This document shows, piece by piece, positions 27,000 through 52,192 of a DNA stretch of 64,000 nt. Under the pieces are notes generated by a model. It did not search any database. It was given only the letters and a program-made list of their open reading frames with translations, and was not told the origin of the DNA. The DNA comes from Megaustenia siamemsis (lineage: Eukaryota > Mollusca > Gastropoda > Stylommatophora > Ariophantidae), in NCBI GenBank assembly GCA_032433765.1, contig JAVIAB010000156.1, forward strand, positions 84,675,015 to 84,739,014, read 5' to 3'. The translations under genes and the position numbers were made by a program. Numbering within the stretch: position 1 is the stretch's first letter; every line of letters begins with the position of its first letter.

Positions 27000-27300
27000 G
27001 TGATACGCAGACAGCGCTACATTGGTGGCATAAGGCGTGCAATAATGACAACAGGTAGTAAGAGCAATCAGCAACAAAAGCAAAGTTGACGGGCTAAGTA
27101 TAAATATGAACAGAACTAATATTGAGATAGAGAGAACTTTGATAACGCACAGGACTTGCGTGTGTACATAACAATGAAAGTAGAAGAGTATGAAGAAATG
27201 CAAGATGACGGTTACTTGAGACAGGAACAATTGATCGAGGTGAATCACGAGACACAAATAAATAGAAAAACACGAGGGACAATTAGGATATCTCCAATAA
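27000..27300. other. Unassigned interval, possibly decayed RT
   Basis: This stretch precedes a recognisable RT fragment and may be its 5' continuation: a plus-strand frame contains GYLRQEQLIEV, vaguely like the GDYLEDLDFADD region of relatives. The similarity is too weak to call. Confidence 0.3.
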
Positions 27301-27736
27301 CATGAAATATGACCGCCCAGCTAAACGAATATCAGGGCTGCAACTCAAAAGGAAAAAAAAGTGTTTTTATTGGAAACAAATACACGGGCATTAGAAGATG
27401 TACAGAAGGAGAAGCAAAAATAATGAAAAATATCAATACCCCAGAGGGAAATATATATATATTGGCATTGGAAAGAGTAGACTACTATATATGTATACAT
27501 TTTGGTAGTAATATAGATCAAGACGGTGAAACACACACAAAAAAGAGATCAGAAGCAGGATTGTAAAAGAAGCAACGAATTTAAAAAAAACTGAACACAA
27601 TATGGAAATCAAAAATACTATATAAGAAAACCAAAGTGAGAATATTCAACTCAAACCTATTATCAACACTTACCTAGACATGTGAAAGCTGGAAAACATC
27701 AAAGAAGATTGAGAGAAAACGCTTTTGAAGATAAAT
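27300..27736 (+). pseudogene. Non-LTR retrotransposon RT/thumb fragment, upstream of a SINE
   Basis: Plus-strand codons give AKIMKNINTPEGNIYI, RVDYYICIHFGSNIDQDGET and, after a frame change, KSKILYKKTKVRIFNSNLLS followed by TLT*TCESWKTSKKIERK. These align in order with the better RT copy at 51340-51640 (KVMKSLIPTSDKIYM, IDHFIYLGSHIDREGDT, KSKLISTNTKLRLFKSNVLS, TYACESWKTTRDIE). The piece covers the region downstream of the RT active site. It has stops and frameshifts and is interrupted at 27737 by a SINE, then resumes at 27997. Confidence 0.8.
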
Positions 27737-27996
27737 AGTAAAAGTAAAGTACCCCCGTCACGCCAAGTGGCGTATAGGGAAATATGGTGTTAGTGATCCT
27801 ATATTTTACAGACCTTCAGCACATGGTTTTTGAGGTAATGTGGTCGGTATTACGCCCGTGCTTCTTTACTTTCCCAGAAAAAGATCCGGTACCATTTTAA
27901 GGCTGGATGAACCCAGAACTGTCGGTTGGGATCGAACCCACCCTACCCTTGTCCTTTGTAGTCCAGTTCACTAACCAATGAGCTATCGCGGCTCCC
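27737..27996 (-). mobile_element. tRNA-derived SINE inserted in the RT fragment
   Basis: A 260-bp element in minus orientation. The minus strand has an A-box-like ATAGCTCATTGGTTAGTG (plus positions 27969-27988) and a near-perfect B box GGGTTCGATCCCAAC (27925-27939), spaced as in a tRNA. A body follows, then a tail ending GGTACTTTACTTTTACTA. It is flanked by TTTGAAGATAAAT (27724-27736) and TTTGAAAATAAAT (27997-28009), a 13-bp target duplication with one mismatch. Removing the element restores the host RT reading order (KRF... to FENKCLRKIL). The short ORF within it is incidental. Confidence 0.87.
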
Positions 27997-28030
27997 TTTG
28001 AAAATAAATGCCTGAGAAAAATACTCTGTG
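27997..28030 (+). pseudogene. RT fragment between SINE and 67-bp array
   Basis: Encodes FENKCLRKILCVQ, matching FENKCLRKILGIE of the copy at 51645-51685. It links the fragment upstream of the SINE to the array. Confidence 0.8.
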
Positions 28031-29307
28031 TACAATAGAATGTATTCAAGACTAATATTGAAATAAGAGAAATAGCCATGCAACCAACGATCTCATCTAC
28101 AATAGAATGTATTCAAGACTAATATTGAAATAAGAGAAATAGCCATGCAACCAACGATCTCATCTACAATAGAATGTATTCAAGACTAATATTGAAATAA
28201 GAGAAATAGCCATGCAACCAACGATCTCATCTACAATAGAATGTATTCAAGACTAATATTGAAATAAGAGAAATAGCCATGCAACCAACGATCTCATCTA
28301 CAATAGAATGTATTCAAGACTAATATTGAAATAAGAGAAATAGCCATGCAACCAACGATCTCATCTACAATAGAATGTATTCAAGACTAATATTGAAATA
28401 AGAGAAATAGCCATGCAACCAACGATCTCATCTACAATAGAATGTATTCAAGACTAATATTGAAATAAGAGAAATAGCCATGCAACCAACGATCTCATCT
28501 ACAATAGAATGTATTCAAGACTAATATTGAAATAAGAGAAATAGCCATGCAACCAACGATCTCATCTACAATAGAATGTATTCAAGACTAATATTGAAAT
28601 AAGAGAAATAGCCATGCAACCAACGATCTCATCTACAATAGAATGTATTCAAGACTAATATTGAAATAAGAGAAATAGCCATGCAACCAACGATCTCATC
28701 TACAATAGAATGTATTCAAGACTAATATTGAAATAAGAGAAATAGCCATGCAACCAACGATCTCATCTACAATAGAATGTATCAAGACTAATATTGAAAT
28801 AAGAGAAATAGCCATGCAACCAACGATCTCATCTACAATAGAATGTATTCAAGACTAATATTGAAATAAGAGAAATAGCCATGCAACCAACGATCTCATC
28901 TACAATAGAATGTATTCAAGACTAATATTGAAATAAGAGAAATAGCCATGCAACCAACGATCTCATCTACAATAGAATGTATTCAAGACTAATATTGAAA
29001 TAAGAGAAATAGCCATGCAACCAACGATCTCATCTACAATAGAATGTATTCAAGACTAATATTGAAATAAGAGAAATAGCCATGCAACCAACGATCTCAT
29101 CTACAATAGAATGTATTCAAGACTAATATTGAAATAAGAGAAATAGCCATGCAACCAACGATCTCATCTACAATAGAATGTATTCAAGACTAATATTGAA
29201 ATAAGAGAAATAGCCATGCAACCAACGATCTCATCTACAATAGAATGTATTCAAGACTAATATTGAAATAAGAGAAATAGCCATGCGACCAACGATCTCA
29301 TCTACAA
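28031..29307 (+). repeat. 67-bp minisatellite, 19 copies, made from RT coding sequence
   Basis: Nineteen almost identical units; one (near 28780) lacks a base. The unit translates as NVFKTNIEIREIAMQPTIS plus STI. The related RT copy at 51680-51750 has this segment once (WNEFKQTNEEIREIANQPLI, then SSVI). RT coding sequence precedes the array and continues after it (29308 onward), so the array is an in-place expansion inside the retrotransposon. The unit is not a multiple of 3 and each copy shifts frame, so the expansion cannot have been coding. Confidence 0.95.
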
Positions 29308-29455
29308 TTAGGAGAGAAGATGGACATATGTTGGACATGTGCTGAAAAGAGACAACAAGAGAATTCCAAACAAGACTCTTCAATGGGCACAGACCAAGAA
29401 TAAGACCTAAAGAGACACTAAATAGAAAATAAACAGAGGCTAGCGGCTGAGAAAG
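29308..29455 (+). pseudogene. RT C-terminal region after the 67-bp array
   Basis: Reads RRRRWTYVGHVLKRDNKRIP, NKTLQW and then RPRIRPKETLNRK*TEASG. This parallels KRRWSYVGHVMRRDNNRIAK, QALIW and RGRPRETLRRTLMREARAAG at 51757-51915. These are the conserved W-x-GHV and GRPR blocks near the C-terminus of this non-LTR group. Stops and a frameshift mark it as dead. Confidence 0.8.
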
Positions 29456-40874: not shown

Positions 40875-41773
40875 TCAGAGTATAATGCCATCACCGTCAT
40901 TGAGTGCTTCACCGCATCGAAAATTGGCACCCAAGGAGCGTCATTCCGCTCTGTCTCTTGCTTTGATAGTGCAGGTTGTCATAGGCTGACTTATCCATCT
41001 TTTGATATTAATCTTCCATGTTAGTCTCGGTCTGCCTTTTTTACCTTGTATCTTTCCTTCCAAGATTATTGTGTGTAGGCTCCTGTGTCTTTTAACAAGG
41101 CCCAAAAATATAATTTGTCTTGTTTGAATTGTGTTTAGTAGTTGTTCTCTTTTCATTTTAGTTGTTTTAAGACTTAATCATTAGTTTTCTTTTCTTTCCA
41201 TCCAATTCTAACTATTCTATAAATGCACATTTCAAATGTTTCAATCTTCTATTCTGCTTTCTCGTCTAATGTGTCCATGTTTCTCAACAGGCCATGTTGA
41301 GAAGATGTAACATTTTGCTATTCTTAGTTTTAGCCTTGGTGTTTTTTTGTTTTGATGTTAGTGTATTTTTCATGACATTAAAATTACTTTTTGCCATTCC
41401 TATTCTTTTGTTTATTTCAGTTGTACATTTTCCATCACTGGTTATAGTATGTCCAAGGTAGTTGTAGTTCTGAACTGTCTCCAGGTCTATTCCTTCAATT
41501 TTGATAAGCACTTGTAGGTTTTGAGTATTTTCTTTGTTTATGATCATAGATTTAGTCTTTTTGATATTCATATCTAGTCCATGTTGTTTGCTTGTCATGT
41601 TTATTTCATTAAGTAATTGTTGTAGATCTGTAGGATTTTCTGCTAGTAGTACAGTATCATCAGCATATCTTAGGTTATTGATTATCTTTCCATTAATGTT
41701 TAGGCCTGGCATCTCATTGATGTTTTTAAAGATTTGCTCAGTGTGTAGATTGAACAAGCTTGGTGATAGGATG
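40875..41773 (-). pseudogene. RT and C-terminal part of a non-LTR retrotransposon
   Basis: Read on the minus strand, the piece starts with CILSPSLFNLHTEQIF. It then has the active site NNLRYADDTVLLAENPTDLQ (YADD at 41656-41667), QNYNYLGHTITSDGKCTTEI and, after a frameshift, the C-terminal FLGLVKRHRSLHTIILEGK and GKKGRPRLTWKINI. Near 40940 a TGA replaces the Trp expected in DRAEWR, after which RSLGANFRCGEALNDGDG continues the family C-terminus. RT motifs upstream of LSP are missing: the sequence changes abruptly at 41774. It is probably the 3' half of the element whose endonuclease lies at 43443-44585. Confidence 0.88.
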
Positions 41774-42148
41774 CATCATAGTCTAGCGTGGACGTGGGCT
41801 GAGATTACCGTTCGCCGATATAAGGACACCACGACGTTACAAGCCCAGCCCTCTCCTACCCCACTTATGTCAGTATTGGAGGTCACTGTAGACTTCATCT
41901 CAAGGTTCTTGACATTCACTGGCTCTAGTTTCCTATCACATGTGTTGTCAGGGGTTGAGCATTTTTTCAAGTCACCCATGATATCAAACTATAAAATATC
42001 TGATACCTCACCCTAACACAATTTATGAAGTTTAAAAAACAAAATAGAAGGAATTCAATGCCGCTGCCAGGGTAAAATATTAAATAGTAACAATTGTATC
42101 ATCATGGAACAAAATATTCCTGAACTTAGGGATGTAACCTGTGGAAAC
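41774..42148. other. Unassigned interval between RT fragment and 30-bp array
   Basis: A minus-strand frame (41776-41979) encodes MGDLKKCSTPDNTCDRKLE and further residues of normal composition, family unknown. It interrupts the RT element at 41773 and may be another dispersed repeat. Confidence 0.35.
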
Positions 42149-43442
42149 TGTTAGTTGAGATAATGTTGAGATGAGCCATGTTAGTTGAGATAGTGTTGAG
42201 ACGGTCATGTTAGTTGAGATAATGTTGAGACGAGCCATGTTAGTTGAGATAATGTTGATACGGTCATGTTAGTTGAGATAGTGTTGAGACCGTCATGTTA
42301 GTTGAGATAGTGTTGAGACGAGCCATGTTAGTTGAGATAGTGTTGAGACGGTCATGTTAGTTGAGATAGTGTTGAGACGAGCCATGTTAGTTGAGATAGT
42401 GTTGAGACGGTCATGTTAGTTGAGATAGTGTTGAGACGAGCCATGTTAGTTGAGATAGTGTTGAGACGGTCATGTTAGTTGAGATAGTGTTGAGACGAGC
42501 CATGTTAGTTGAGATAGTGTTGATACGGTCATGTTAGTTGAGATAGTGTTGAGACGAGCCATGTTAGTTGAGATAGTGTTGAGACGGTCATGTTAGTTGA
42601 GATAGTGTTGAGACGAACCATGTTAGTTGAGATAGTGTTGAGACGAGCCATGTTAGTTGAGATAGTGTTGAGACGAGCCATGTTAGTTGAGATAGTGTTG
42701 AGACAAGCCATGTTAGTTGAGATAGTGTTGATACGAGCCATGTTAGTTGAGATAATGTTGAGACGAGTCATGTTAGTTGAGATAGCGTTGAGACGAGCCA
42801 TGTTAGTTAAGATAATGTTGAGACGAGCCATGTTAATTGAGATAGTGTTGAGACGAGCCATGTTAGTTGAGATAATGTTGATACGGTCATGTTAGTTGAG
42901 ATAGTGTTGAGACGAGCCATGTTAGTTGAGACAGTGTTGAGATGAGCCATGTTAGTTAAGATAATGTTGAGACGAGCCATGTTAGTTGAGATAGTGTTGA
43001 GACGAGCCATGTTAGTTGAGATAATGTTGAGACGAGCCATGTTAATTGAGATAGTGTTGAGACGAGCCATGTTAGTTGAGATAATGTTGATACGGTCATG
43101 TTAGTTGAGATAGTGTTGAGACGATCCATGTTAGTTGAGATAGTGTTGAGACGAGCCATGTTAGTTGAGATAGTGTTGAGACGAGCCATGTTAGTTGAGA
43201 TAGTGTTGAGACGAGCCATGTTAGTTGAGGTATTGTTGAGACTGTCATGATAGTTGAGATAGTGTTGCACGAGCCATGTTAGTTGAGTATAGTATTGAGA
43301 CGAGCCATGTTAGTTGAGATAAGCCATGTTAGTTGAGTATAGTATTGAGACGAGCCATGTTAGTTGAGATAAGCCATGTTAGTTGAGATATTATTGAGAC
43401 GGTGATGTTAGTTGTGATAGTATTGAGACGAGCCATGTTAGT
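42149..43442. repeat. 30-bp minisatellite, about 43 copies
   Basis: Unit contains ATGTTAGTTGAGATAGTGTT then GAGACGAGCC; a 29-bp form ends GAGACGGTC. The array keeps long frames open on both strands (plus MLVEIVLRRA, minus MARLNTISTN), a result of the unit being ten codons. It lies between the endonuclease and RT parts of one minus-strand retrotransposon. Confidence 0.96.
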
Positions 43443-44585
43443 TGGTTTGTATATAGCTTTAGCATCTCCTTTTTGTTGAATTTCAATCTCTTTACATCTC
43501 TCTTTTAGCCATGCTTCTTTTGCTTCATTGCATTTTACTACAATTTCTTTATTTAATCTCTTATATTCATCTTTATTTTCTTTATTTCTTCTTCTTGTAT
43601 CCATTAGCTGCAAAATGTCATCTGTCATCCATTTCTTTCTTGAATTTGTCCTCACTGGTGGTATGAGCTCTTTTGATGTTTGTTGCATTGATTCTTTTAG
43701 CATTTCCTACTGTTCATCAATGCTTTGTATCTTCTCTATTGCATTGTACCGGTTCTGTATTGTGATTTTATATTTGTCTTGCAGCTTCTTGTCTGATTTT
43801 AGTAAATCTAAATTTAACTTGATGTTAACTGCGGCTCGTTTTGTTGTTTTTAATTTTACTCTAAGCTTTCCCACAACTGGTACATGATCACTATTGCAAT
43901 CTGCCCCTTGTCTAGTTTTCACACACACCAGACTGTTTTTAAATCTATTACTTATCATTATGTAATAAATTTGATTACGCGCGTTGTACCCGGGGCTTTT
44001 CCATGTCCACAGACGCCTTGGATGTTGCTTAAACCAGGTGTTTCCTATCATCATGTTGTGTGTTCTTGCCCAGTCAACAAGTTTCTCACCTCTTTCATTC
44101 CTCTTGCCTAAGCCATAATGACCAACTACTTCCTCAACTCTTTCCTTTCCTACTTTTGCGTTAAAATCCCCTAGAACTATGGTGTTTTCATATGGTTTGC
44201 ATTATGAAGTGCCTCATTTAACTCGTTATAAAATGTATCAATTGTTTCCTCTAGACTGTCTGCTGTTGGTGCATAACTTGTAAAAGATTTATGTCTATTG
44301 GCTTTCCATTCAATTTCACTAAAAGGACTCTGTCAGATATTGGGTAAAAGCCTTTCACTGTTCTTGCTCTTTCTGTATCCAAGATGACACCTACTCCTCT
44401 ATGGTGTTCAGTATCTCCAGAATAGATTATTTTATGTTAATCAGAATACATCTCCCCTGATCCGGTGTATCTCATTTCGCAAAGTCCCAGTAATTGTAAA
44501 CCCATTCTTTTCATTTCTTGTATGATGTTTTCTAGTTTACCCTTTGTAGGATTTGAGTTTAATGTTTGTTGCGCAATAAGAGCAA
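43443..44585 (-). pseudogene. AP-endonuclease and linker of a non-LTR retrotransposon
   Basis: In minus-strand order: GKLENIIQEMKRMGLQLLGL and CEMRYTGSG (N-terminal strand with the catalytic Glu), HRGVGVILDTERAR, GKPIDI, TIVLGDFNAKVGKERVEEVV (the GDFN motif), EKLVDWARTHN, WTWKSPGYNARNQI and NSDHVPVVGKLRVKL (the SDH catalytic motif). A basic linker follows (SRKKWMTDDILQLMDTRRRN, then KEIEIQQKGDAKAIYK). This is the exonuclease-endonuclease-phosphatase fold that nicks target DNA in RTE/CR1-type elements. An internal stop near 44430 and frameshifts near 44200 and 43705 show it is dead. The linker runs straight into the 30-bp array. Confidence 0.88.
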
Positions 44586-50448: not shown

Positions 50449-52069
50449 GATTTTGAAGCTGAAACACCAGCAGCAGAATTAGATGTAAATTTAGATGACT
50501 TCACCTTGAGTGAAATAGAAACCACCTTAAAGCTAATGACCAATAACAAGGCTGCTGGAGAGGATAAGTTAACAGCTGAGATCCTCAAGGCAATTGATAG
50601 CCATAATTTAATACATCTCCAAAAAATGTTCAACATCATTTGGAAAACAGAGAAGACGCCTCATAAATGGAAAAAGGAATCATTGTTAAGATCCCAAAAA
50701 GGGCAATCTTAGAGATTGTAACAATTGGAGAGGCGTGACACTTTTGTCAGTTGCCTCAAAATTATTCTGTAAAATCATCCTAAATAGAATAAAGGATTCA
50801 ATAGATACAGTAATGCGTGAAGAACAGGCTGGGTTAGAAAAGGGAGAAGCTGTCTTGACCACATTTTCACTCTACGACTTATATTGGAGGAACACATTGA
50901 AAAGCAAAAACCTTTTGTACTTAACTTCATCGACTTCAAAAAAGCATTTGATAGTATTCATAGAGATTCTTTGTGGAAAATTCTGAAGCAATATGGCTTA
51001 CCATAAAAATCATAAATATTATCAAAGACATGTATGATGGTTACACATGTGCAGTTCGAACAGAGGAAGGACTGAGCGAATGTTTCCCAATAGAAACTGG
51101 GGTTAAACAAGGATGTATTTTATCGCCCTTGTTATTGGAATTGTTATGGACTTCATAATGAAGAAATGCTGCACTGGTAATAAAGGCATCGAATGGATAC
51201 AAGGAGACCATTTGGAGGACCTGGACTTTGCTGATGACATAGTTCTCATCAGCAATCAGATAAAAACGATGCAGGAAAACACAAATGAACTATCATCAAT
51301 AGCCAGCAAAATTGGGCTTGAGGTCAATCATGAAAAGACTAAAGTCATGAAAAGTTTAATTCCAACAAGTGACAAAATATACATGGAAAACAAACCAGTA
51401 GAAGAGATCGATCACTTCATCTATCTTGGAAGTCACATTGATCGAGAAGGGGATACGAGCAAAGAAATTAGAATCAGACTGGCTAAAGCAGCAATGTCTT
51501 TCAGAAGCCTTGAAAAGTTGTGGAAATCAAAACTCATTAGCACAAACACAAAACTTAGGCTATTCAAATCAAATGTACTATCAACCCTTACGTATGCGTG
51601 TGAAAGCTGGAAAACAACAAGAGATATAGAAACAAAGTTGAACGCATTCGAAAATAAATGTCTAAGGAAAATACTTGGTATAGAATGGAACGAATTCAAA
51701 CAAACGAGGAAATTAGAGAAATCGCCAATCAACCACTAATATCTTCAGTAATAAAGAAAAGACGATGGTCATACGTTGGACATGTGATGAGAAGAGATAA
51801 TAATCGAATAGCAAAGCAAGCCCTCATATGGGAAACAACAGGTAAAAGAAAAAGAGGAAGACCCAGGGAGACACTGAGAAGAACATTGATGAGAGAGGCA
51901 AGAGCAGCAGGAATCGGCTCCCTCAATGAGATAGAACTGCTTGCACAGAACAGAGACAGATGGCGAGATTTGATAAAATATCTTTAAAGAAAATTGTTAG
52001 AACAAAAATTCATATAGGAGAAGGTGTATCTTGGTCTACGCCCTATGGGCCGGTTACGGCTCGAAAGGT
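50449..52069 (+). pseudogene. Non-LTR retrotransposon RT, nearly complete but frameshifted
   Basis: Motifs appear in order in shifting frames: LSEIETTLKLMTNNKAAGED and KLTAEILKA (motif 1 region), NWRGVTLLSVASKLFCKIIL, EEQAG, FIDFKKAFDSIHRDSL (motif A, 50926-50973, with the catalytic Asp), ETGVKQGCILSPLL (near 51100-51135), LEDLDFADDIVLIS (motif C, near 51213-51254), IDHFIYLGSHIDREGD, TYACESWKTTRD, NKCLRKILGIEWNEF, RRWSYVGHVMRRDNN and KRKRGRPRETLRRT, ending DRWRDLIKYL at about 51987. At least four frameshifts and a stop near 51002 inactivate it. No endonuclease remains. The 3' end (CCGGTTACGGCTCGAAAGGT, then ATAGATAGATAG) looks like a genuine tail. Confidence 0.92.
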
Positions 52070-52192
52070 CAATAGATAGATAGATATCTGTGCTGATCTC
52101 CTTATACTATTCTTCAAATCATTACTGACCCCTTGTGATGGCATCGCGGACCCCTGGGGTGGGGGCCACGGACCACAGTCTGAGAAAAGCTG

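Follow-up and report, generated by a model that had tools for sequence, protein, structure and literature searches.

The 67-bp array and its host element

The window, by which we mean the whole stretch of 64,000 nucleotides that was analysed (C151:84675015-84739014), contains more than 20 different minisatellite arrays, and TRF assigned about 69% of it (positions 1-64000) to tandem repeats. One of these arrays has a period of 67 bp and lies in a copy of a LINE family, LINE-B. A copy of a related family, LINE-A, is found further downstream. The features of both are listed here in window coordinates.

27416-27736, plus strand: LINE-B, 5′ flank before the insert; matches the flanks of other LINE-B loci and, in part, LINE-A
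27737-27996, minus strand: presumably SINE-like insert within LINE-B, about 260 bp
27997-28030, plus strand: LINE-B sequence FENKCLRKILC, directly 5′ of the array; from the flanks of other loci and comparison with LINE-A
28031-29302, plus strand: 67-bp tandem array of 19 units (17 identical); from TRF and exact parsing
28031-28036, plus strand: first TACAAT box; single-unit LINE-B copies have it in the same position, intact in 28 of 46
29303-29308, plus strand: last TACAAT box, 3′ of the final unit; intact in 32 of 46 single-unit copies
29309-29427, plus strand: LINE-B sequence RRWTYVGHVLKRDN, 3′ of the array, frameshifted; from the flanks of other loci and comparison with LINE-A
50500-52070, plus strand: LINE-A reverse transcriptase (RT) copy with the homologous segment present once at 51681-51735; RVT_1 and DUF6451 in ORF 51107-51739

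TRF called the array at 28031-29308 with 19.1 copies of period 67 and 99% matches. Exact parsing of the array as assembled gave 19 units of 67 bp, 17 of them identical; unit 12 (28768) lacks one T, and unit 19 carries a single A-to-G change. The 19 nearly identical copies reported in the first-pass annotation were therefore recovered, but not the extent of 27300-29455 given there, since the array covers 28031-29302 plus the TACAAT box that ends at 29308.

Each unit is a segment of RT sequence with a TACAAT box at either end. It shares 75-77% identity with the RT segment of LINE-A and also matches the single-unit LINE-B copies described below. The first-pass annotation had recognised the unit as a piece of RT-coding sequence, which agrees with the single homologous segment at 51681-51735. 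The peptide that it read from the unit does come from an RT segment, but because 67 is not a multiple of 3, NIEIREIAMQPTIS is readable only in every third unit, and the remaining frames contain stops. For the same reason two or more units run into a stop in unit 2, while a single unit keeps the LINE-B frame, as seen with the modal unit and short flanks. An in-frame protein repeat was thereby ruled out. Rfam gave no matches to the sequence at gathering scores, and a search for an exact 52-base stretch of the unit in viral contigs also gave none.

The flanks of other LINE-B loci match the window at 27416-27736, 27996-28030 and 29303-29427. Pieces of 27499-29374 align with the RT copy at 51423-51820 with 68-77% DNA identity and in the right order on both sides of the array, which is in agreement with the earlier view that the array lies inside a retrotransposon. 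Judged by this identity to LINE-A, the LINE-B host appears to be a decayed copy of a non-LTR retrotransposon. With a 67-bp unit of transposable element (TE) sequence, within the 10-100 bp range, and LINE-B on both sides, the array has the form of a TE-derived minisatellite still in place within the TE copy. The insert ends 34 bp upstream of the array and divides the 5′ LINE flank; the 13-mers on its two sides (27724-27736 and 27997-28009) agree at 12 of 13 positions, and dispersed copies of it with 78-92% identity occur in several of the loci fetched from the genome. We take it to be SINE-like and on the minus strand from a stretch resembling a tRNA B box.

A 294-aa read-through of the LINE-A copy had 224 protein relatives at E ≤ 0.001, and the named ones among the 120 matches listed came from molluscs, amphioxus, a fish and a trematode. 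In 15 matches to LINE-A within the window and the 20 fetched loci, at 91-100% identity and including mutual duplicates, the homologous segment is crossed without a break. The TACAAT pair is absent from this stretch of LINE-A. The copy at 51680 is related to the host of the array, as first proposed, but belongs to another family that lacks the box pair. With a LINE-A dimer as query, the matches among the best 40 of 652 candidates covered at most 81 of its 136 bases and thus showed no tandem. As a control this search is suggestive: LINE-A is younger than LINE-B, and its age could explain the absence of arrays.

The window also holds a second LINE remnant on the minus strand (41284-44201), situated around a 30-bp minisatellite at 42149-43444. 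It comprises an RT piece with RVT_1 (41284-41775) and an endonuclease-like piece at 43707-44201, where Exo_endo_phos_2 scored below the curated cut-off.

Occurrence of the segment in the genome

We searched the assembly (2.59 Gb, 155 contigs) with a dimer of the window unit and obtained at least 158 matches from the best 40 of 813 first-look candidates. Grouping of these matches by hand gave at least 37 places including the window, which rules out a unique event at the window locus. From the 36 places outside the window, 20 were fetched with their flanks. LINE-B adjoins the array on at least one side in all 20, on the 5′ side in 17 and on the 3′ side in 13. The seven loci without a 3′ match (L031, L035-L038, L043 and L044) have about 30 bp of LINE-B 3′ flank, followed by another sequence that they have in common. 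Unit numbers at the fetched loci range from 2 to 57, and almost every unit measures exactly 67 bp; the parser used for the count omitted one first unit at some loci. Arrays adjoin both flank subtypes, TTAGGAAG and TTAAGGAAA.

Given the LINE-B sequence at 20/20 fetched loci, we rejected the explanation that the array is a dispersed satellite with no relation to the LINE; the first-pass annotation had named arrays outside the retrotransposon as the finding that would speak against it, and none were found among these places. Arrays of 2-57 units next to LINE-B also differ from satellite DNA in the sense of long arrays that are independent of TEs and make up a main fraction of the genome.

Some of the fetched loci are recent duplicates of one locus, namely L035-L038 together with L044, and likewise L039 with L042. 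The five members of the former group have 6 to 14 units. Their last unit is identical and their first unit differs by at most one base; the internal gains and losses between them are whole units. In these five, C105 and C123 carry repeats of a block of several kb around the LINE-B array, with 95-99.8% identity; the block may have been duplicated recently or may belong to a larger mobile unit.

To avoid selecting copies by their array, we ran searches with the 3′ flank only. The queries were the flanks of two array copies, L046 (4,596 candidates) and L052 (2,742), and of one single-unit copy, L057, identical with L130 (5,532). For each query the best 40 candidates were scored, 39 of them non-self; with 1 and 13 repeats, this gave 39, 38 and 26 new copies, 103 in total, which were read from the flank upstream over 191-331 bases. 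A single unit was present in 62 of these copies, a tandem in 6 (L055, L083, L091, L120, L122 and L155) and a partial unit in 17. The other 18, without a unit above threshold, are truncated, interrupted or too diverged. The earlier expectation that other copies of the element contain sequence homologous to the unit thus held for 85 of 103. Among the 68 informative copies, the tandem share was 8.8% (6/68; 95% interval 3.3-18.2%). What the first-pass annotation missed is that the array is not confined to one element, as these six tandems and the at least 37 places found with the dimer show.

Since 62 single units stand against 6 tandems, the single unit is probably the ancestral state of LINE-B. 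In 46 single-unit copies, the 5′ TACAAT box was intact in 28, the 3′ box in 32 and both in 19, so that the unexpanded unit is bounded by short direct repeats, with TACAAT at either end. In the tandem copy L083, the first of the two units is cut by the apparent 3′ end of a LINE-A-type element. L094 and L119, as well as L137 and L145, have common sequence upstream of the point where LINE-B breaks off (L082 stands apart). Some of the 103 copies are therefore duplicates of each other, all of them without a unit.

Segments of LINE-B other than the 67-bp one are tandem at L040:3603-3946 (48 bp), at L041:3729-3936 (32 bp) and, with a unit of 58-59 bp, at L050:250-680 and 2624-2892. At L040:5922-6530 there is a 48-bp (16-codon) array with a unit resembling the RRWSYVGHVMRRDN segment of these LINEs. 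Tandems of the LINE-B 3′ end were seen in 2 of the 39 neighbours of L057; C8:69945361-69945885 and C125:45775168-45775644 show such tandems, with steps of 66 and 70 bp. Arrays of other LINE-B segments may count against an explanation of birth that is specific to the boxes. Minisatellites arise at many sites in this genome; the register that recurs here is the 67-bp one.

Divergence of units and flanks

When the window units were compared with the nearer of two modal units, defined from the array loci themselves, four substitutions (G7A, A13T, G44A and A58C) were present in at least 90% of the units. The mean p-distance within the array was only 0.002, while 13 of 125 sites in the 3′ flank (10%) did not carry the LINE-B majority base. 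On the strength of the common substitutions, the 0.2% divergence within the array and the 10% divergence of the flank, the array would have been born, or wholly swept by one unit, after much of the decay of this copy. This supports the view, already expressed in the first-pass annotation, that the expansion is recent relative to the decay of its host.

In 13 independent array loci, the units differed on average by 0.040 from the modal unit and the flanks by 0.120 from the majority, a comparison that is biased because the window is one of these loci and 11 others had been retrieved by their resemblance to its unit. It omits the loci whose 3′ flank could not be compared (L031, L035-L038, L043 and L044), one with a flank of 70 bp only (L032) and the duplicate of L039 (L042). 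Units that stay alike while flanks decay could mean that arrays exchange sequence between loci, by ectopic conversion or reseeding. The flank-chosen set points in the same direction, with a mean unit divergence of 0.045 in the 6 tandem copies versus 0.077 in the 62 single ones (one-sided p=0.0066), a difference to which the detection of tandems may contribute by favouring less diverged units. At L052, a locus identified through adjacency, 3 of 7 units equal the modal unit, beside a flank that is 15% off. The five recent duplicates, however, showed no consistent gap between array and flank differences, and the bias in the choice of the 13 loci also weighs against such exchange, which we regard as improbable. 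Strong homogenisation between loci was discarded, as the threefold gap comes mostly from loci picked by unit similarity and the flank-chosen values are 0.045 versus 0.077.

Near-identical units in tandem pose difficulties for assembly, and the array or its copy number might have been made by assembly or polishing. The loci have distinct and ordered unit variants, the duplicates have unit strings in common, and single-unit copies read normally; we therefore consider an artefact of this kind very improbable.

Birth of the arrays and known systems

The 67-bp register, its boxes, the common single unit, tandems in a minority of copies next to both flank subtypes and whole-unit differences between duplicates were all directly observed. 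The following course of events may account for them. The RT-coding sequence of LINE-B offers a 67-bp interval with a copy of the 6-bp direct repeat TACAAT at each end. Slippage between the boxes, or unequal exchange, may have duplicated the segment along with one box in a minority of copies, whether at reverse transcription or when the DNA was subsequently replicated or repaired. The homology of 67 bp would then have caused whole units to be added or lost in place. We infer that slippage began the process and that births occurred many times independently. Taken together, recurrent birth between the TACAAT boxes, growth by whole units and a late birth or sweep in the window form an account that we hold with moderate confidence.

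The neighbours of the flank queries bear on whether birth was recurrent. Among informative neighbours, tandems numbered 3/30 for L046, 2/22 for L052 (one copy in common) and 2/24 for L057. The neighbours of array copies are thus not richer in arrays than those of the single-unit copy, in a weak test where the identity to the queries was only 79-92%. These counts favour recurrent birth at one predisposed site.

Other data count in the opposite direction. One and the same unit sequence can be present in as many as 7 of the 13 independent loci, and in 13 of 17 arrays no substitution reaches 90% of the units. The lack of near-fixed substitutions and the variants common to several loci suggest that many copies already had several units at or near the time of their insertion. 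An inherited array would give this state too, which counts against recurrent birth. In such a history, there was one birth followed by spread: a source LINE-B with a tandem passed arrays to its daughters and was mobilised in trans, because its own RT would be cut short, and the single-unit copies came from sister elements or collapsed arrays. The absence of near-fixed substitutions and the identical units are what this history predicts. It fits less well with the single unit being both common (62/68) and the sole state that keeps the frame, with tandem neighbours of array copies (3/30 and 2/22) being about as frequent as those of the single-unit copy (2/24), and with arrays beside both flank subtypes. 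We consider a single birth rather unlikely.

Birth during reverse transcription would fit both the shared units and the arrays without fixed substitutions. If the enzyme slips between the TACAAT boxes, about one in ten new copies would be born tandem and would then grow in the host DNA. Such a slip would explain together the few fixed substitutions, the lack of clustering by flank and the presence of arrays in both subtypes. We propose this version of recurrent birth only tentatively.

Earlier work has described minisatellites derived from TEs, their birth between direct repeats and hot spots within TEs; replication within one genome is unusual. Ahmed and Liang 2012 (PMC3389668) describe human TE-derived minisatellites, some of them multi-locus, with 300 of 7,276 flanked by direct repeats of 5-20 bp and with hot spots in TEs, two in AluS and two in LTR12. 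Arrays built from TE pieces are common to both cases; compared with that account, LINE-B has one exact 67-bp register in RT-coding sequence, which about 9% of informative copies have in tandem, and the single-unit state is visible alongside. In the model of Haber and Louis, as outlined in PMC3389668 and PMC6947457, a minisatellite is born between short direct repeats. The LINE-B unit likewise spans from one short direct repeat to the next, and here too the longer homology would drive growth. The model is usually argued from single loci, whereas LINE-B has the same box pair in many copies.

According to Vondrak et al. 2019 (PMC7004042), satellites expanded from short arrays inside LTR retrotransposons. 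Internal short arrays expand in some copies there as well as here; however, the array belongs to those LTR elements, whereas LINE-B apparently had a single unit originally and its array breaks the frame. The satellites PROsat, Pvc 20 and HinfI are related to LINE ORF2 or CR1 according to a review (PMC9659126), and thus resemble the LINE-B unit in their relation to LINE coding sequence. They are described there as satellites resembling LINE pieces, whereas LINE-B has short arrays in place within the element. The same review states that conclusive evidence is lacking for a preference for specific TE portions. A literature search of partial coverage returned no title or abstract start that names an array of this type in an RT segment.

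LINE-B provides thousands of candidate copies with the same seed repeats, which differ in age and in the decay of their boxes. Together with a sister family without the box pair, this amounts to a replicated test within one genome, in which counting could show how often arrays are born, whether this depends on the direct repeats and how the arrays grow afterwards. If recurrence is true, LINE-B would be a clear case of a TE segment that is predisposed to become a minisatellite.
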